Assembly (NCBI GenBank): GCA_002698995.1 | Contig: PAAX01000012.1 | Coordinates: 124,001 to 188,000 of the forward strand | Reading direction: 5' to 3' | From: Ignavibacteriota bacterium | GTDB taxonomy: Bacteria; Bacteroidota; Ignavibacteria; Ignavibacteriales; Melioribacteraceae | DNA length: 64,000 nt | Shown here: positions 5,568-17,203 of the stretch, piece after piece | Layout of the letters: every line of letters starts with the position of its first letter | Numbering within the stretch: the stretch's first letter is position 1 | Notes under the pieces: generated by a model | Database searches by the model: none | What the model was told of the DNA's origin: nothing | The model's input: the letters and a program-made list of their open reading frames with translations, nothing else | Translations under genes and position numbers: made by a program

Positions 5568-7553
5568 ATGGGAAGAGAGATAATCATAAAAAACTGTAAG
5601 TTTTTTCTGCCAATTTTACTTTTCCATATTTTTTTAATTTATGAAACAAAAGCGCAATCAGATACTAATTCAATATATGATTTAACACTTTCCCAATTAA
5701 CACAATTAAAAGTTACATCGGTAAATAAAGTAGAGCAAAGCGTAAATGAAATTCCTGCTACTGTTTTTGTTATAACCGCAGAGGAATTAAAAGAAAGAGG
5801 AATCTTTACACTTGAAGAAGCACTTTCAGATTTACCGGGATTTCAATTTAGAAATATACAAGGAATTAACAGTTACGTTTTTCAACGAGGGATTCCAAAT
5901 CAAAATAATCTTACTCTTTTGTTAATAGATGGAATTCAGATTAATGAATTAAACTCCGGCGGATTTTATGGTGGGGGTCAGTATAATATTTCTAATATTG
6001 AAAGAATAGAAGTGATTAATGGTCCAGCTTCTGCAGTTTACGGAACAAATGCTGTAAGCGGTGTAATTAATATCATTACAAAAAATCCATTATCAAATAG
6101 TGCTGATATTTCTGCTGCTTACGGTTCATTCAATTCATTAATGGGTAATTTTAATTACAGTTTTATTAATCCAAGCGAATCATTTAAAATACGTTTTTCC
6201 GGAATGTATAAATACAGTACCAAGGCGGAATTGGGAGGAGCGGAAGGTGATTATAACTGGACAGAGAATATTGAAAATTATGAAAGAGATTACTCATTCG
6301 ATCTCAAATTAATTTCAGGCGGATTAACTTTTGGTACAAGTTACATACAGAAACAAACACCAACCACAACTTCAAACAAAGCTGTAGGAACAATTTATTC
6401 CGATAGAGGGACTTTCTGGAATATCAGATTTATAAATAATTACTTGAAGTATAACTTTTATTCATCAAATGATTTTTCATTAACGGCAGTTTTATACAAT
6501 AGAAATGCCACTGTTTTAAGCAACTCAATTTACGAAGTTGTAGATACTGCTCAAGTAGGATATTTCCGTCCCAACAATTTAACGGGGATTGAAAGTATTG
6601 CCGATTTGAAAGTTTTAGAAAATCTATTTATTACTTCCGGCTTAACCTTTGAGTATGAAAGCTTAGCCGAATCAAACTCGTTTTCATACAGCAGCAGCCC
6701 AAATATTAAACCGCCAAAACCTGTAACTCCTAAAATGATATCAAATTATTTAACTAGTATTTTTATTGAACCAAGAATAAAGATAGAAGAAAAATTATTT
6801 TTCTCGGCTGGATTACGATTTGATAACAGCACTATTTATGACAATATATTAACTCCGAGGGCAGGGTTAAGTTATAATTATAATAATGTTCAATTCAGAA
6901 TTTCATACTCACAAGCTTTTAGAGCACCCAAACCGTGGGATTATACAGATGGAGTCGGAAACAATTCCTTAAACCCAGAAAGAATGAAGTCAATTGAAGG
7001 CGCGGTTAAAACCTTCTTTCATGAAAATTTTATTGCGGGAATTAATCTATACAGAAATCATTTAGAAAATGCATTAACAAGAGAATTAACTCCAAACGGT
7101 TTTAGATGGATAAACAGCGGCGGAGCTTATGTTAACGGAGCAGAGGTTTACTTTAATTACTTAATTGGAAAGCTGAAAACAAATTTCAATTATACTTTTA
7201 CAGAAAGCTACAATGAGAATGGAACTTATCTTACCGAAATAAGCAGACACACTTTTAACACAGGATTAACTTACTCGCTTTCAAAAAACTTTAAAATCAA
7301 TTTCAGAGCAAATTATTTCGGCAAAAGGGAAAATCCTAGAATAATTGCTTCAACAAATAATTCTCTTATTGATCCGGCTTTGATATTTCATGCAGCCGTT
7401 TCCTTATTAAATTATAAAGGAATTGATCTTCAGCTTTCTGTAAAAAATATTTTTGATACCGAATATTACCATACATCAAATAGACAGCCGGATAGATACA
7501 GACAATCACAAAGGACTTTTATTTTTACTGCAGGCTATTCATTGTTTAATTGA
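5568..7553 (+). CDS. TonB-dependent outer-membrane receptor
   Basis: 661 residues with a signal peptide (to about residue 30, ETKAQ). The plug domain runs from about residue 45 to 170. It contains NEIPATVFVITAEELKERG, FQRGIPNQNN, the NISNIERIEVINGPASAVYG block and SGVINIITK, all typical of TonB-dependent receptors. The rest is a 22-strand-type barrel ending in an aromatic-rich strand (TAGYSLFN). It lacks the N-terminal carboxypeptidase-like domain seen in the receptor at 31812-34028, and it is short, as in siderophore/cobalamin-type receptors. A YfiR-domain histidine kinase starts 24 bases downstream, suggesting ligand uptake coupled to sensing. Substrate cannot be told from sequence. Confidence 0.93.
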   Translation: MGREIIIKNCKFFLPILLFHIFLIYETKAQSDTNSIYDLTLSQLTQLKVTSVNKVEQSVNEIPATVFVITAEELKERGIFTLEEALSDLPGFQFRNIQGINSYVFQRGIPNQNNLTLLLIDGIQINELNSGGFYGGGQYNISNIERIEVINGPASAVYGTNAVSGVINIITKNPLSNSADISAAYGSFNSLMGNFNYSFINPSESFKIRFSGMYKYSTKAELGGAEGDYNWTENIENYERDYSFDLKLISGGLTFGTSYIQKQTPTTTSNKAVGTIYSDRGTFWNIRFINNYLKYNFYSSNDFSLTAVLYNRNATVLSNSIYEVVDTAQVGYFRPNNLTGIESIADLKVLENLFITSGLTFEYESLAESNSFSYSSSPNIKPPKPVTPKMISNYLTSIFIEPRIKIEEKLFFSAGLRFDNSTIYDNILTPRAGLSYNYNNVQFRISYSQAFRAPKPWDYTDGVGNNSLNPERMKSIEGAVKTFFHENFIAGINLYRNHLENALTRELTPNGFRWINSGGAYVNGAEVYFNYLIGKLKTNFNYTFTESYNENGTYLTEISRHTFNTGLTYSLSKNFKINFRANYFGKRENPRIIASTNNSLIDPALIFHAAVSLLNYKGIDLQLSVKNIFDTEYYHTSNRQPDRYRQSQRTFIFTAGYSLFN

Positions 7554-7577
7554 AAAACATTTACATGGAATGTTATA

Positions 7578-9908
7578 ATGACAAACATTAGAAATTCAGT
7601 AATTGTGTTCACATTAATTTCATTGTTGTTCAGGATAGAAATTAATTCGCAATCCTTAAAACACCACCAAGCAGTAGCCGCATATCTATACAACTTTGCT
7701 AAAAATGTACGATGGGAAAATGAGAATCGAATTTCGGAATTTAAATTCCACTATGTGGGAAATAACGAAAGAATTAAAGAAGAATTAGAATCACTTGCAA
7801 AATTAAGACGATTACGAGATAAACCAATTAAAATCACATACAACAATTCCGAACTAGAAAAAGCACATTTAGTATTTATCAGTAAAGATGCAAATCCACA
7901 ATTAGTGCAGTTGTATGACAGAATAGAAGGAAAAAATATTCTGCTTGTAAGTGAAGAATATTCAGATAAAAAACTAATCATGATAAACCTAACAAAGAAG
8001 AATGAATCCCTTCATTTTGAGATTAACAAAGCAAATATTATAAATCAGAATATAGAAATAACAGATGATCTAATTTTACTTGGGGGAACAGAGATTGATG
8101 TTGCATCACTTTATAGAGAAAGTCAGCAGACGTTAAGAACATTGCAAAAACATGCAGATAAATTAGAAGAAAATTTAATTAATCTGGAAAGAAGCATAAA
8201 TGCAAAATCCAAGGAGATTGAATTACAGAAAGAAAATTTGGAAAAGCAGTCAAACAAACTAAACGAACAGAATAAAACATTAAGTGAACAATCTTTGCTT
8301 TTAAAAAAGCGGGACAAGGAATTATCCGAACAGTTAAATAAGATAAATGAACAGAATGAAATCTATGAGAAGCAGTCAAAAAAACTTGAAGAGCAAAAGG
8401 AAGAATTAGCTGAAGGGAATAAACTTCTAAACGAATTAAAAGAAGATATAGAGAAGCAAAAAAATGATTTGGCTGAACAATCAAAAGCTTTAGAAGAGCA
8501 AAGCAAAACAATAGGGAAACAGCAGGAATATTTACATCTTTTAATAATTATAGTTGCACTTGTAATTTTGTTAAGTGCTGCGGTTTATATCGGGTATAAG
8601 AATAAAATTCGTTTAACAAAGGAACTTGAAATTAAAGTTCAGGAAAGAACAAATGAACTAAAAAAATTAAATGAAGAACTTGAAGAAAGAGTAAACAAAA
8701 GAACCGATGAGCTGCAGCGGACAAATAAAAATTTGGGTGAAGCAAAGAAAGAAATTGAAGAAGTAAACAAATATTTGCTAAATGAAATTGATGTTCGTAA
8801 AAAAGTTCAAACCGATCTTGCTGAAAGTGAAAAAAGATTAGAAGCGATTCTTAATTATGCCCCTATACTTGTTTATATAAATGATGTTAATGGTAAATAC
8901 ATTTTCGTCAATTATGAATTTGAAAAGGTAATGAAATTAAAATTTGAGGAAGTCGTAAATAAAAATGATCTTGAAATATTTCCAAAGCAAAGAGCCGAAA
9001 GGAATATTGCCCAAAACAAAAAAGTAATAGAAACCGGTAAAGCACTTACTTTTGAAAATCCGTCACAGAAGGAAGACGGACTTCATTATTTCTTTGATAT
9101 CATCTTTCCGATATTTGACAGTAATAATAAAATAACAGCAACATGCGGCTGGACTATCGACATTACTGATAGAAAGAAGAGAGAAGAAGTTCTTAAAGAA
9201 GCAAAAGATAAAGCTGAATCTGCAGATAAATTGAAATCGGCTTTTCTTGCTACAATGTCACACGAACTAAGAACTCCTCTTAACTCAATAATTGGTTTTA
9301 CCGGAATTTTATTAAAAGGGATTGCGGGACCATTAAACTCGGAACAGATAAAACAGTTAGGATTGGTAAAAGGAAGCGCTCAGCATCTTTTGGCGTTGAT
9401 AAATGATGTTTTAGATATTTCAAAAATTGAAGCGGGACAGTTGGTCGTATCAATTTCCAAGGTTGATTTTAGAAAAACATTAACAGGTGTGGTGGAAAGT
9501 ATTATACCTTCTGCAGAAAAAAAATCTCTTGAAGTTTACTTAAGCATTGCAGATGAAGTAAGCGAAATAGAAAGTGATGAACGGAGAGTAGGACAAATAT
9601 TTCTCAACTTAGTTAATAACGCAATTAAATTTACAAATGAAGGTTTTATTAAAATCGACAGTTTAATTCAAAACGGTAAATTAATTACAAAAGTAATGGA
9701 TAGCGGAATAGGGATAAAAGAAGAAGATAAAGAAAAACTCTTTAAACCATTTAGTCAAATTGACACCGGACTTTCGCGCAACCATGAGGGAACCGGTCTG
9801 GGCTTATCAATTACTAAAAAACTTGTAGAAAAATTGGGCGGCAAAATTTATGTTGAAAGTTCGGTTAATAAAGGAAGTACATTTATAGTTGAATTTCCTA
9901 ACAAATAA
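7578..9908 (+). CDS. YfiR-domain/coiled-coil/PAS sensor histidine kinase
   Basis: 776 residues. A signal sequence (1-25) leads to a periplasmic YfiR/DUF4154-like domain (about 27-175; starts LKHHQAVAAYLYNFAKNVRW, ends LLGGTEID). An unusually long periplasmic coiled coil of about 140 residues rich in EQ-S-LxKQ heptads follows, then a transmembrane helix (about 315-337). A short cytoplasmic coiled coil, one PAS domain (about 415-530), HisKA with His562 in ATMSHELRTP, and a complete HATPase (GTGLGLSITKK) follow. YfiR-type domains sense redox or surface conditions in characterised systems. The neighbouring TonB receptor upstream and receiver protein 20 bases downstream suggest a receptor-kinase-regulator chain. 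The input signal is unknown. Confidence 0.9.
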   Translation: MTNIRNSVIVFTLISLLFRIEINSQSLKHHQAVAAYLYNFAKNVRWENENRISEFKFHYVGNNERIKEELESLAKLRRLRDKPIKITYNNSELEKAHLVFISKDANPQLVQLYDRIEGKNILLVSEEYSDKKLIMINLTKKNESLHFEINKANIINQNIEITDDLILLGGTEIDVASLYRESQQTLRTLQKHADKLEENLINLERSINAKSKEIELQKENLEKQSNKLNEQNKTLSEQSLLLKKRDKELSEQLNKINEQNEIYEKQSKKLEEQKEELAEGNKLLNELKEDIEKQKNDLAEQSKALEEQSKTIGKQQEYLHLLIIIVALVILLSAAVYIGYKNKIRLTKELEIKVQERTNELKKLNEELEERVNKRTDELQRTNKNLGEAKKEIEEVNKYLLNEIDVRKKVQTDLAESEKRLEAILNYAPILVYINDVNGKYIFVNYEFEKVMKLKFEEVVNKNDLEIFPKQRAERNIAQNKKVIETGKALTFENPSQKEDGLHYFFDIIFPIFDSNNKITATCGWTIDITDRKKREEVLKEAKDKAESADKLKSAFLATMSHELRTPLNSIIGFTGILLKGIAGPLNSEQIKQLGLVKGSAQHLLALINDVLDISKIEAGQLVVSISKVDFRKTLTGVVESIIPSAEKKSLEVYLSIADEVSEIESDERRVGQIFLNLVNNAIKFTNEGFIKIDSLIQNGKLITKVMDSGIGIKEEDKEKLFKPFSQIDTGLSRNHEGTGLGLSITKKLVEKLGGKIYVESSVNKGSTFIVEFPNK

Positions 9909-12122: not shown

Positions 12123-13184
12123 ATGGTTGAGATTTATAAAGAAACCGGCAGAATGATTAAGGATATAGATGATTCATTTTTTAATGCAATCTTACAAAAG
12201 CAGTTTGAATACCAGCCCGAGTTAAAAGAGAGGTACAATTCAAAGCAAATTCAAAAGTATATTGACGATACAAAATATCATTTGAGTTATTTATCTGAAG
12301 CGATAACTAACAACAGACAAGTTTTGTTTAATGAATATCTGGCATGGATCAAAATATATTTTAATGGACTACCGGTAACCGATGACGAAATTATATTAAA
12401 TTTTCTACTTGTTAGAGATGGACTTAAAGAAATACTTCCCAACGAAATGTCGAACATATCATCAAAATTTATCAATACGGGAATTGAATATTACAAATCA
12501 AAGCCGCCGTTACTACCCAGTTTTATAACGGATGAAAATCCATTTAAAGAGTTGGCACAAAACTATCTTAGTTTTCTGGTTAACGGCGATAAAAATTCTG
12601 CACATCAATTAATAATGAAAAGTGTTGAAAACAAAACTTCAATTAAGGACTTATATTTAAATGTTTTTCAAGTAACACAAAAAGAGACCGGAAGATTGTG
12701 GCAGTTAAGCAGAATTACAGTTGCACAAGAACATTTTATAACAGCAGCAACCCAGCTAATAATGGCTCAGCTGTATCCTTATCTTTTTACTACAGAACTA
12801 AAAAATTATAAAGTGATTGTAAGTTGTGTTGAAGGAGAACTTCATGAGATAGGAGCAAGAATGGTTGCAGATATTTTTGAAATGGAGGGCTGGAATTCAT
12901 ATTACTTCGGAGCTAATACATCAATAGATAATTTAATAGATAACATAAAAAAACATCAACCGAATATTGTTGCGATCTCTGCTACTATGATTTTCAATAT
13001 TTCTACAGTTTCAAAAATTATTCAAACTATTAGAAAATTTGATTCTTTAAAAAAAATAAAAATTCTTGTTGGGGGTTATCCTTTCTTAATTGCAGAAGAT
13101 TTATGGAAAGATATTGGTGCAGATGGATTTGCTTCCGATGCTCTTGCGGCAGTTGAAATTGCAGAAAGATTTTTAAATCAATAA
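12123..13184 (+). CDS. Cobalamin-binding protein, candidate B12-dependent photoreceptor (CarH-like sensor without DNA-binding domain)
   Basis: 353 residues. Residues 1-150 are helical and not assigned (perhaps RsbRD_N-like). Residues 155-225 form the helix-bundle cap of B12 proteins, and 225-353 the Rossmann-like B12-binding domain. Seen directly: E239-L-H241-E-I-G244, a variant of the DxHxxG motif that supplies the lower axial His; SATM for the SxL position; and VGGYPF. The cap carries Trp193, nine residues, then Glu203-His204. This exact Wx9EH spacing marks the adenosylcobalamin-binding cap of CarH-type light sensors. There is no MerR domain. The gene ends 9 bases before a histidine kinase, the probable output partner. 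Methionine-synthase-like or corrinoid methyltransferase roles are less likely, because no partner methyltransferase is nearby. Confidence 0.85.
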   Translation: MVEIYKETGRMIKDIDDSFFNAILQKQFEYQPELKERYNSKQIQKYIDDTKYHLSYLSEAITNNRQVLFNEYLAWIKIYFNGLPVTDDEIILNFLLVRDGLKEILPNEMSNISSKFINTGIEYYKSKPPLLPSFITDENPFKELAQNYLSFLVNGDKNSAHQLIMKSVENKTSIKDLYLNVFQVTQKETGRLWQLSRITVAQEHFITAATQLIMAQLYPYLFTTELKNYKVIVSCVEGELHEIGARMVADIFEMEGWNSYYFGANTSIDNLIDNIKKHQPNIVAISATMIFNISTVSKIIQTIRKFDSLKKIKILVGGYPFLIAEDLWKDIGADGFASDALAAVEIAERFLNQ

Positions 13185-13193
13185 GGCTGAGTT

Positions 13194-14384
13194 ATGATTT
13201 ATACAGATGAAGGAATTTTGGTTTCATGTTCAAATGAAGGAAGAATAACTAATGTTTATTTTAACAAAACCGAGATTAAAACCGAGGACGTAATTCAAAA
13301 ATTATTGCCGGAATTATTCAGAGAAGATTATATAACAAAAGCCTTAAACTTTTTTATGAAAGTTAAAGAAGATTCTGCATCGTTCGGCTGGGAGTTTTTT
13401 CTAAATCCAAATATTATTAATGAACCCTTTTATTTTAGCGGCGCCGTAGTTGATAAAGACATTTTAATATTTGGTTCTAAATCAAAGGTGGACTTTAATA
13501 AATTTATAACTGGAATGATGCTCTTAAATAATGAGCAAATCAATAAGATAAGAGAACTGGAAAAAGAGAGAAAAGAACTTTCCGTTAGTAATGAAATGCT
13601 TGATGTAAAACACTTTAATGAACTGAGCCGATTAAATAATGAACTTGTATCTATTCAAAGAGAACTTACCAAAAAGAATTTAGAACTTGCCGAACTGGAT
13701 AAAATTAAAAACCAGTTTATCGGAATGGCAGCACATGATTTGAGAAATCCCCTTGGAAGTATTTTTATTTATACAGAGTTTCTTGAAGAAGAAAAAGAAT
13801 CTTTTACCGAAGAACAATTGGAATTTCTAAATTCAATAAAAACTCAAAGTTCGTTTATGCTTAATCTTTTAAATGAATTGCTTGATGTCGTATCAATTGA
13901 ATCAGGTAAAGTTCAGCTTAATTTGGAAAGTGCTGATATAATAAAGTGTATTTCTCACAATTTGCACCTTAACAAAGCACTTGCCGATAAGAAACAAATT
14001 AAAATTGAATTTGAAACAAAAATTAATTCATGCTTCTTTAATTTTGATAAAGTTAAAATGGAGCAGGTACTTTCTAATCTTATTACTAATGCAATTAAAT
14101 ATTCAAACAGCAGCACAACAATTACCGTATCACTTTCTAAATTAAAAAACGATTTATTGATTGCTGTTAAAGATGAAGGACAAGGGATTGCTTCCAATGA
14201 GTTGGATAAACTATTTAAACCATTTCAGAGAACAAGCGCAAAAACTACTGCCGGAGAAAAAAGCACAGGACTGGGACTTTTTATTGTTAAAAGAATTGTA
14301 GAAGCTCACAATGGAAAAATTTGGGCAGAAAGTAAAGTCGGAGTTGGATCAACATTTAAATTTGCTTTACCGATAAACAATTAA
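13194..14384 (+). CDS. Soluble histidine kinase paired with the B12-binding protein
   Basis: 396 residues, no membrane segment. Residues 1-115 form an unassigned input region (possibly a degenerate PAS). A coiled coil covers about 118-172. HisKA has His181 in GMAAHDLRNPLGS. The HATPase is complete (SNLITNAIKYS, DEGQGI, STGLGLFIVKR). The start follows the cobalamin protein stop by 9 bases, and the same AAGGCTGA-type leader precedes this ATG as precedes the TonB receptor at 5568. The kinase has no receiver or DNA-binding domain, so a partner such as the receiver proteins at 9929 or 17217 would be needed. A role as output of light or cobalamin sensing is inferred from the pairing. Confidence 0.88.
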   Translation: MIYTDEGILVSCSNEGRITNVYFNKTEIKTEDVIQKLLPELFREDYITKALNFFMKVKEDSASFGWEFFLNPNIINEPFYFSGAVVDKDILIFGSKSKVDFNKFITGMMLLNNEQINKIRELEKERKELSVSNEMLDVKHFNELSRLNNELVSIQRELTKKNLELAELDKIKNQFIGMAAHDLRNPLGSIFIYTEFLEEEKESFTEEQLEFLNSIKTQSSFMLNLLNELLDVVSIESGKVQLNLESADIIKCISHNLHLNKALADKKQIKIEFETKINSCFFNFDKVKMEQVLSNLITNAIKYSNSSTTITVSLSKLKNDLLIAVKDEGQGIASNELDKLFKPFQRTSAKTTAGEKSTGLGLFIVKRIVEAHNGKIWAESKVGVGSTFKFALPINN

Positions 14385-14605: not shown

Positions 14606-17203
14606 ATGAGTAATGAATTAAGAGTTCTTTTAGTTGAGGATAACGAAGATGATGAAAGATTATTAAGTTTTGAACTGAAAAAATCATATCAGCTTACACT
14701 TAAAAGAGTAGAAACAAAAGAAGATTACCTTACCCAAATTAAAGAGTTCAATCCAAAAATAATTATCTCAGATTATAACCTTCCGTCATTTAACGGAATT
14801 GAAGCATTAAATATCAGGCAAATGGAAGTCCCATTAACTCCATTCATTCTTGTTACAGGCTCAATTAATGAAACAACGGCTGTTGAATGTATGAAAGCGG
14901 GAGCAGATGATTATATTCTTAAAGAACATCTAAACAGATTAATTCCATCAATCGAATCTGCAATTGAAAAGAAAGAAAATCAAAAAACAAAAATTAGTGC
15001 GTTGGATGCATTAAAGAAAAGTGAAGAAACATTCTTAAATATTTTCAATAATTCTGTTGTTGCAATTTATGTAATAAATAAGGAAGGAAAATTTTTAGAT
15101 GTTAATCAAGCAGCATTGGATTTTTATCTATGTGAAAGAGAAGATTTAATAGGAAAGAATTTTTCAGTAGTCGATGCTGACGGAAAAAATAATTTGAATA
15201 AAATATCCGAATTGATGAAACTTTGCATGAGCGGTATTCCACAGCAATTTGAATTTTGGGCTAAAAAGAAAAATGGTGTAATCTTTCCTAAAACGGTAAA
15301 GGTAGAAAAAGGATCATACTTTGGCAAGACAGTAATATTTGCTTACGCTATTGATATAACCGAAAGAAAAAAGGCAGAAGAGACATTAAAGGAAAGTGAA
15401 GCATTTCAAAAAGCCTTAATTGAAAGCTCTCCCCTTCCTTTTATTAGTATTGACTTACAAGGAAATGTTGTTACATGGAATGAAGCAGCGGAAAAAGTAT
15501 TTGGCTGGACTGAAGAAGAAGTAATTGGAAAACCAAATCCAATTATTCCTCCCGATAAAAGTGAAGAGTTTAAAAGTTTATCAAAGTTTGTGCTTGAAGG
15601 AAATAGTTTCTCAGGTAAGGAATTAAAAAGAATAAGAAAAGACGGCGGATTAATTTCAATAAGTTTATCAACCGCACCGATTTATAATTCCGAAAACAAA
15701 ATTATTGGTGTAATGGCTTCCGCAGAAGATATTACGGAAAAGAAAAAGAATGATGAACAGTTACGGCTGCTAAGTACTTCCGTAGAACAAAGTCCCGTTG
15801 GAAAAGTAATTACCGATCCGCAAGGAATAATTTTGTATGTAAATAACAGCTTCTGCAAAATTTCCGGATACTCAAGAGAAGAAGTGATTGGAAAAAATCC
15901 AAGAATTCTTCAGTCCGGTTATCATCCAAAAGAATTTTATGAAAAGTTTTGGAACACAATTCTTTCAGGTAAAACTTGGGAAGGTGAATTTAGAAATAAA
16001 AGAAAAAACGGCGAGTTATATTGGGAATCAGCTGTTATCTCTCCGATAATAAACGAGGAAGGAGACATTACTCATTTTATAGAAGTTAAAGAGGATATTA
16101 CCGAAAAAAGAAGAATTGAAAAACTAATCAGATCTCAGAATGAACTATTGAATGTAATGTTTGAAAATATCCCTGTTATCCTTTGGAGATCCGATCCACA
16201 GATAAATACGGTTTGGTATAACAAAGAGTTTTCGAAAAAAATAGGGTGGGAAACAAAAGCAACATCCAACATAAATTACATGTTGGAAAAATGTTATCCC
16301 GATCCTGATTATAGAAAATCGGTTGTTGCCTTTATGGAAAAGGCAGATTCGAGCTGGAAAGAATTTGTATTAACTAACTGCGAGGGAAGAAGAGTTCCAT
16401 GTTTGTGGTCAAATATAAAACTAAAAGACGGCTCGTTGATAGGAATAGGAATTGATTTAACAGATAGAAAAGAATATGAAAGAGATTTGATTGAAGCGAA
16501 AGAGAAAGCAGAGTCTGCAGACAAATTAAAAACAGAATTTCTCGCTCAAATGTCGCATGAAATTAGAACCCCGATAAATGCCGTGATAGGAAATCATAAT
16601 TTATTAAGAGAATTAGTAGGAAAAGAATTCTTAGACGAATACATTGATATATTTACCGGAATTGAATCTGCTTCACGCAGAATAATTAGAACAATCGATT
16701 TAATACTTAATATGGCTGAAATCCAGTCAGGAAGCTACCTTCCCGACTTTTCAGAGATTAATTTAGAAAAAGGAGTATTTGATAGATTGATTAAGGAATT
16801 TAAAATTCCAGCCGAATTAAAAAAGTTAGATTTGGTATTTGAAAGCGAAATTGATAATCCGGTTATTGTTGGGGATGAATACAGCATTATTCAAATTTTT
16901 TCAAACGTTATTGATAATGCAGTTAAATATACCAACAAAGGAAAAGTTAAAATAAAAATTTGTTCAGATCTCAATAGAATTATAGTTGAAATTTCCGACA
17001 CCGGAATTGGAATAAGCAAAGAATTTATGGAAAATCTATTTGATGCCTTTGCACAAGAAGAAGCCGGTTATTCCAGATCTTATGATGGAAACGGTTTGGG
17101 ACTTGCGCTGGTTAAAAAATACTGCGAGCTTAACAGCGCACATATAGAAGCTGAAAGTGAAAAGAATGTTGGTTCAACATTCAGAGTTATATTTAATAAA
17201 TGA
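14606..17203 (+). CDS. REC-PAS(x4) hybrid histidine kinase
   Basis: 865 residues, soluble. A receiver (5-120, Asp56 in IIISDYNLP) is followed by four PAS domains (about 133-250, 262-380, 385-505 and 512-620). HisKA has His651 in AQMSHEIRTPINAV, and the HATPase (about 745-865) ends in GNGLGLALVKKY. The third PAS has GKNPRILQ where LOV domains have a flavin-binding Cys, so it is not a LOV photosensor. An AGAGG ribosome site precedes the ATG. The TGA stop is the first part of the TGAGGAG that serves as ribosome site for the next receiver gene, so the two are translationally coupled. Signals for the PAS domains are unknown. Confidence 0.92.
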   Translation: MSNELRVLLVEDNEDDERLLSFELKKSYQLTLKRVETKEDYLTQIKEFNPKIIISDYNLPSFNGIEALNIRQMEVPLTPFILVTGSINETTAVECMKAGADDYILKEHLNRLIPSIESAIEKKENQKTKISALDALKKSEETFLNIFNNSVVAIYVINKEGKFLDVNQAALDFYLCEREDLIGKNFSVVDADGKNNLNKISELMKLCMSGIPQQFEFWAKKKNGVIFPKTVKVEKGSYFGKTVIFAYAIDITERKKAEETLKESEAFQKALIESSPLPFISIDLQGNVVTWNEAAEKVFGWTEEEVIGKPNPIIPPDKSEEFKSLSKFVLEGNSFSGKELKRIRKDGGLISISLSTAPIYNSENKIIGVMASAEDITEKKKNDEQLRLLSTSVEQSPVGKVITDPQGIILYVNNSFCKISGYSREEVIGKNPRILQSGYHPKEFYEKFWNTILSGKTWEGEFRNKRKNGELYWESAVISPIINEEGDITHFIEVKEDITEKRRIEKLIRSQNELLNVMFENIPVILWRSDPQINTVWYNKEFSKKIGWETKATSNINYMLEKCYPDPDYRKSVVAFMEKADSSWKEFVLTNCEGRRVPCLWSNIKLKDGSLIGIGIDLTDRKEYERDLIEAKEKAESADKLKTEFLAQMSHEIRTPINAVIGNHNLLRELVGKEFLDEYIDIFTGIESASRRIIRTIDLILNMAEIQSGSYLPDFSEINLEKGVFDRLIKEFKIPAELKKLDLVFESEIDNPVIVGDEYSIIQIFSNVIDNAVKYTNKGKVKIKICSDLNRIIVEISDTGIGISKEFMENLFDAFAQEEAGYSRSYDGNGLGLALVKKYCELNSAHIEAESEKNVGSTFRVIFNK

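Follow-up and report, generated by a model that had tools for sequence, protein, structure and literature searches.

The gene at positions 12123..13184 (+ strand, start codon ATG) of the window, by which the whole analysed stretch of 64,000 nucleotides from an Ignavibacteriota bacterium is meant, encodes a protein of 353 aa (open reading frame and translation, Pfam, AlphaFold2 model) that, according to its sequence and predicted structure, most likely has the photocobilin architecture in the globin-first order. Both the globin-type and the cobalamin-binding domains are present in it, the chromophore residues are conserved, a histidine kinase gene is paired with the gene, and in one relative sensor and kinase are fused. 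In our opinion, it is quite probable that this protein is a photocobilin-type light sensor, with the globin preceding the cobalamin module, acting on the co-encoded histidine kinase. The sequence-only reading of this DNA overlooked the photocobilin family, described in 2022–2024, and the likely output, the adjacent kinase.

The N-terminal part had earlier been described as an unassigned helical domain of ~150 residues standing in place of the usual MerR DNA-binding domain. The helical domain is real and the MerR domain is indeed absent, but the domain can be assigned. Neither Pfam nor NCBIfam gave a name to residues 1–140, and when residues 1–145 were searched as a single sequence against PDB, the first four matches were allophycocyanins with E of 0.03 to 1.4. 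With the full 353-aa protein as query, a second and weak match was to the globin of SasPcob (PDB 8J2W, 8J2X), which is the stand-alone photocobilin from Saccharothrix syringae. A profile of the N-terminal domain based on 18 relatives recognised the globins of SasPcob (E 4.3e-7) and AbPcob (E 3.1e-5), followed by allophycocyanins from E 9e-5. The Pfam Phycobilisome family matched 12 of the 18 family members individually (best E 1.7e-7), the 353-aa protein itself giving E 0.16.

Since the B12 half dominated the Foldseek matches of the full model, a separate AlphaFold2 model was made for the N-terminal domain and used in a search of its own. This model reached a pLDDT of 90.6, and phycobiliproteins were found across the best 50 Foldseek matches listed. 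A second structural aligner returned phycobiliproteins, their engineered and designed relatives and SasPcob, with Z 16–18 and rmsd 1.6–2.7 Å over 121–131 residues; residues 1–127 of the full model gave the same phycobiliprotein-type fold matches. By profile and modelled fold, residues 1–131 (12123..12515, + strand, as all features of this gene) are thus a phycobiliprotein/photoglobin-type globin. The same evidence ruled out a MerR-type regulator, and a domain missed by Pfam in this protein has been assigned, which is useful for genome annotation.

The residues lining the pocket of this globin deserve particular consideration. In SasPcob, Asp270 is the main biliverdin contact, and Trp296 packs on ring D of biliverdin and on the corrin (PMC10979010). 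These residues align with D49 (12267..12269) and W75 (12345..12347), kept in 17 and 19, respectively, of the 20 aligned sequences, the 353-aa protein being counted in; the numbering of 8J2W was verified through Trp61, Glu71, His72 and His108, the numbers in the paper being six above the chain index. The position of the bilin-attachment Cys in the C-x-R-D motif of phycobiliproteins is occupied by Y46 (12258..12260, from alignment columns), so the covalent-attachment Cys is missing. Eight relatives from Bacteroidota and Polyangia have Cys at this position, and the Ignavibacteria clade has Tyr. SasPcob also has no attachment Cys and holds biliverdin non-covalently (PMC10979010).

Another question is the supply of cofactors. 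The genome encodes a cobalamin adenosyltransferase and has one cobalamin riboswitch (Rfam) elsewhere, which together indicate, as far as gene content allows, that the host is able to convert cobalamin into AdoCbl. Heme oxygenase (PF01126) was found neither in the own genome, which is 99.99% complete, nor in 21 of the 22 genomes in which the protein or one of its close relatives is encoded (completeness of 90% or more in 16 of them), and a phytochrome PHY domain was found in none of the 22. The sole carrier with a heme oxygenase (L055) is the genome from Polyangia in which the kinase is fused (L036). Across the phylum, heme oxygenase occurs in 30 of 292 sampled genomes (~10%), and chance alone would give 0 of about 15 in roughly one case out of five. 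At such a low rate, its absence is not a significant depletion and is weak evidence against bilin binding: the genome offers no evident bilin source, but this is not a sign of loss by selection. An own heme oxygenase is also not a published requirement for membership in the photocobilins.

These data bear on the strongest of the competing explanations, namely that the protein is a green-light sensor using AdoCbl only, in which the globin, while retaining its fold and the shape of its pocket, carries no bilin and has an allosteric or docking role. This explanation is plausible, even if we do not expect it to hold. It agrees with the missing heme oxygenases and phytochromes, with Y46 in place of the attachment Cys, and with the weak binding of biliverdin by AbPcob, at about 20% occupancy (PMC10979010). 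However, the conservation of D49 and W75 would be hard to explain without a ligand, the scarcity of heme oxygenase in the phylum takes much force from its absence, and the chromophore could come from a non-canonical route of heme breakdown or from biliverdin taken up by the cell.

The C-terminal part of the protein is a cobalamin module, in which Pfam recognised B12-binding_2 at residues 146–217 (E 2e-11) and B12-binding at residues 229–344 (E 2.6e-21). In the full-length AlphaFold2 model (pLDDT 91.2, pTM 0.85), these correspond to a four-helix cap (residues 142–217, 12546..12773) and a Rossmann-type domain (residues 228–346, 12804..13160). The cobalamin-binding core noticed by the sequence-only reading, E239-L-H241-E-I-G244 with SATM and VGG, was found in the translation at the positions given there, and H241 (12843..12845), which is invariant and aligns with His108 of SasPcob, is the predicted lower axial ligand of cobalt. 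When the full protein was searched against PDB sequences, SasPcob came first with E 5e-22. The best structural matches of model residues 139–353 were photocobilins (Z 25–26, rmsd about 2 Å), ahead of MetH, MtmC-type proteins, CtMerR, AerR and CarH. The B12 half was also matched by the NCBIfam models for CarH and for corrinoid proteins, with every score far below the respective cut-off.

The W193-x9-E203-H204 motif (W193 at 12699..12701, E203-H204 at 12729..12734), previously linked with CarH/LitR light sensors, stood up to comparison: GxxW-x9-EH is aligned in 20 of 20 relatives carrying the B12 module and in none of the eight MetH and corrinoid methyltransferase controls. Even the looser pattern W-x(8-11)-EH was absent from these same-phylum controls (six carriers of corrinoid methyltransferase, two MetH). 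Across the 353-aa protein and its 20 relatives, up to Myxococcota and Planctomycetota, there is no variation in GxxW, EH or the lower-ligand His. Of the SignatureFinder signature of light-responsive cobalamin domains, three motifs are present: GxxW (G190-R-L-W193), EH and GxxH (G238-E-L-H241). GxxxP, which is also one of the four signature motifs of such domains (PMC11796333), is broken (G263-A-N-T-S267; S267 at 12921..12923), Pro being present in 20 of 20 relatives; even the nearest relative, 64% identical over the protein, keeps it. The position of the second His of CarH/LitR (H132 in TtCarH), which serves in the bis-His light state, is taken by Q194. As Gln is found there in SasPcob too, the light state of the 353-aa protein is, by analogy, more likely aquo-cobalamin than the bis-His form of CarH (PMC11796333).

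Cobalamin or redox sensing has been proposed for some AerR-like regulators, and the protein could similarly report the presence or form of B12, but not light, to the kinase. This appears unlikely. The structure matches show the same fold in AerR and AppA, S267 weakens the light signature, and many carriers probably belong to sediment or anaerobe-rich lineages, all of which would suit such a function. On the other hand, there is no variation in GxxW-x9-EH, the motif packing against the adenosyl group, and the B12 half is closer in Z to photocobilins than to AerR or AppA.

The phylogenetic position of the module was established with a family tree, which had been proposed earlier as a check, built on 53 cobalamin modules including eight rows of MetH and corrinoid methyltransferases. 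Light-type modules, with the module of the 353-aa protein among them, split from these eight rows with a support of 100/99. Both this grouping and the structural nearness to photocobilins support the earlier view of an AdoCbl light-sensor module of the CarH type that has no DNA-binding domain. The tree position also ruled out the identity of a corrinoid methyltransferase, and a role as corrinoid carrier of a methyltransferase is very improbable for the protein, because, although NCBIfam corrinoid models score on its Rossmann half (far below cut-offs), the tree sets it apart and its neighbours are signalling genes, with no methyltransferase gene adjoining.

Within the light-type modules, the 353-aa protein belongs to a globin-first clade of 19 rows (99/93), and SasPcob and AbPcob form a separate pair (97/97) apart from it. 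B12 proteins lacking a globin are the closest neighbours of the globin-first clade. The branches connecting globin-first and globin-last photocobilins have supports of 94/90 and 85/89, under the star threshold, and at this sub-threshold support the tree offers only a suggestion that the two types may be separate fusions.

A second B12 protein is encoded in the same genome (L054:7107-7751, - strand, contig C7, also L002). This globin-less protein of 214 aa has GHLW-x9-EH, EFHEIG and an intact GxxxP, its best PDB match is SasPcob, no kinase adjoins its gene, and in the tree it is placed with stand-alone proteins, whose clade is the sister group of the globin-first one. A globin-B12 protein was also noticed on a contig filed under a Methanomethylophilaceae archaeon (L035:2279-3376), which is either a true archaeal gene or a mis-binned contig. 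In viral contigs, no relatives were found by the family-alignment scan.

The gene of a 396-aa histidine kinase (13194..14384, + strand; HisKA 172–238, HATPase 285–394 by Pfam) starts 9 bp downstream of the globin-B12 gene on the same strand. A kinase lies directly downstream on the same strand in 14 of the 19 loci with a globin-B12 relative, with gaps of -8 to 14 bp and one exception at 99 bp. A kinase-like gene adjoins the globin-B12 gene in the putative archaeal locus, probably representing the same pairing, and the genes of two globin-less B12 relatives overlap kinase genes. At L037, L051 and L053 a kinase gene was not seen; D49 and W75 are also missing at L051. In Polyangia (L036:5974-7923), the globin-B12 module is fused to HisKA-HATPase, and the linker of this fusion is near-identical to that in the separate kinase 13194..14384. 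The fusion protein has Cys at the bilin-attachment position.

The synteny in relatives and the Polyangia fusion are the grounds for naming the kinase as the output, and the globin-B12 protein probably signals, as gene order suggests, through a phosphorelay via this kinase. Control in trans is plausible because a stand-alone photocobilin regulates an enzyme in trans (PMC10979010). The kinase begins with a conserved domain of ~105 aa (window 13194-13520), for which Pfam and PDB sequences gave no match; a PAS-like identity considered for it finds no support in these searches. A REC-PAS(3)-HisKA-HATPase hybrid kinase (14606..17203, + strand; Pfam, neighbourhood) is a possible further relay partner, and a hybrid-kinase-like gene also follows the sensor–kinase pair in several relatives.

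The mechanism that we propose for the photocobilin-type sensor follows the solved photocobilins, for which a dark AdoCbl dimer, photolysis of the Co–C bond, movement of the Glu-His helix and loss of the dimer contact have been established, together with red-light coupling when biliverdin is present (PMC10979010). By analogy, AdoCbl would be bound in the dark between the Rossmann domain, with H241 as the lower ligand, and the cap, with W193, E203 and H204 around the adenosyl group, probably in a head-to-tail dimer. Green light would break the Co–C bond and the adenosyl group would leave, whereupon the helix carrying E203 and H204 would move and the dimer interface would be lost. Should the globin pocket hold a bilin on D49 and W75, the reaction might be driven by red light as well. 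The light state may then change the contact with the kinase and thereby its autophosphorylation and the phosphorelay of the signalling cluster; both this control and its direction are presumptive, and light sensing itself is expected by likeness to solved photocobilins. Three points count against the mechanism: S267, since it breaks a signature motif (PMC11796333); the missing canonical heme oxygenase, owing to which a bilin may never be present; and the position of the globin-first clade apart from the solved photocobilins.

A comparison with known systems shows to what extent these data are new. The protein has three features of photocobilins: a CarH-type module with W-x9-EH and E/DxH, a fused bilin-type globin and the equivalents of Asp270 and Trp296. 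It resembles SasPcob in both domains, W-x9-EH, the ExH-type lower ligand, Gln after Trp, the aligned biliverdin contacts and the lack of both an attachment Cys and a fused output. In contrast to SasPcob, which belongs to a separate clade and has a C-terminal globin, it has an N-terminal globin, a co-encoded kinase and Ser in place of Pro, and there is no heme oxygenase in its genome. AbDPcob, a photocobilin–diguanylate cyclase from Acidimicrobiaceae (PDB 8J2Y), likewise combines a cobalamin module and a globin controlling a signalling output, but its diguanylate cyclase is fused, its globin follows the cobalamin module, and His replaces the bilin-binding Asp.

Photoglobins, as a family and in their link to B12 domains, have been known since 2022 (Schneider et al., cited in PMC10151467). 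Photoglobins and BBAG-2 globins are similar to the N-terminal domain in being non-heme phycobiliprotein-like globins tied to B12-binding proteins; photoglobins are reported with a CXQD motif, whereas the 353-aa protein has Y-I-D-D49. CarH/LitR and CtMerR share the AdoCbl cap and Rossmann module with GxxW-x9-EH, but the 353-aa protein has a globin and neither a MerR domain nor a second His by the Trp. Allophycocyanin and other phycobiliproteins have the fold of the N-terminal domain and the Asp of C-x-R-D; the differences are the Tyr in place of the attachment Cys and the role of a sensor part, not an antenna.

Photocobilins have already been sorted by the N- or C-terminal position of the AdoCbl domain (PMC10979010), and cobalamin domains fused to biliverdin-binding domains have been reported widely (PMC11796333). 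As both domain orders are in the literature, the architecture of the 353-aa protein is not new; the conserved kinase pair in the globin-first clade and the missing bilin source may be additional to what is known. The architecture is thereby extended to a non-photosynthetic lineage and linked to a specific output candidate, a kinase adjoining in many genomes and fused in one. Since the output partners of stand-alone photocobilins have been described as unclear (PMC10979010), the gene pair is a direct test case. The absence of heme oxygenase in carriers also raises the question of what the phycobiliprotein-type pocket contains. Quite tentatively, and with doubt prevailing, the globin-first branch of Ignavibacteria, other Bacteroidota, Myxococcota and Planctomycetota could be regarded as a detachable two-component sensor, whose kinase has an undescribed sensor-side domain and most of whose hosts have no bilin supply of their own, so that the pocket would be empty or would hold a borrowed bilin or another ligand.

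As for the wider neighbourhood, no Rfam families were found within the 64-kb window, and hence there is no cobalamin riboswitch near the globin-B12 gene; scans for promoters and terminators gave fewer sites than in shuffled sequence. The globin-B12 gene is preceded by a response regulator and a hybrid kinase, and further upstream there are a TonB-dependent receptor gene and then a kinase whose sensor domain is YfiR/HmsC-like (DUF4154; window 5568-9908). In another genome (G180; L048:85-5612 and 6839-7902), the globin-B12 gene comes after putative HemE, HemN, HemH and HemG genes, recognised by motifs, and its frame is broken between the globin and B12 parts, which fits a single frameshift or an assembly error.
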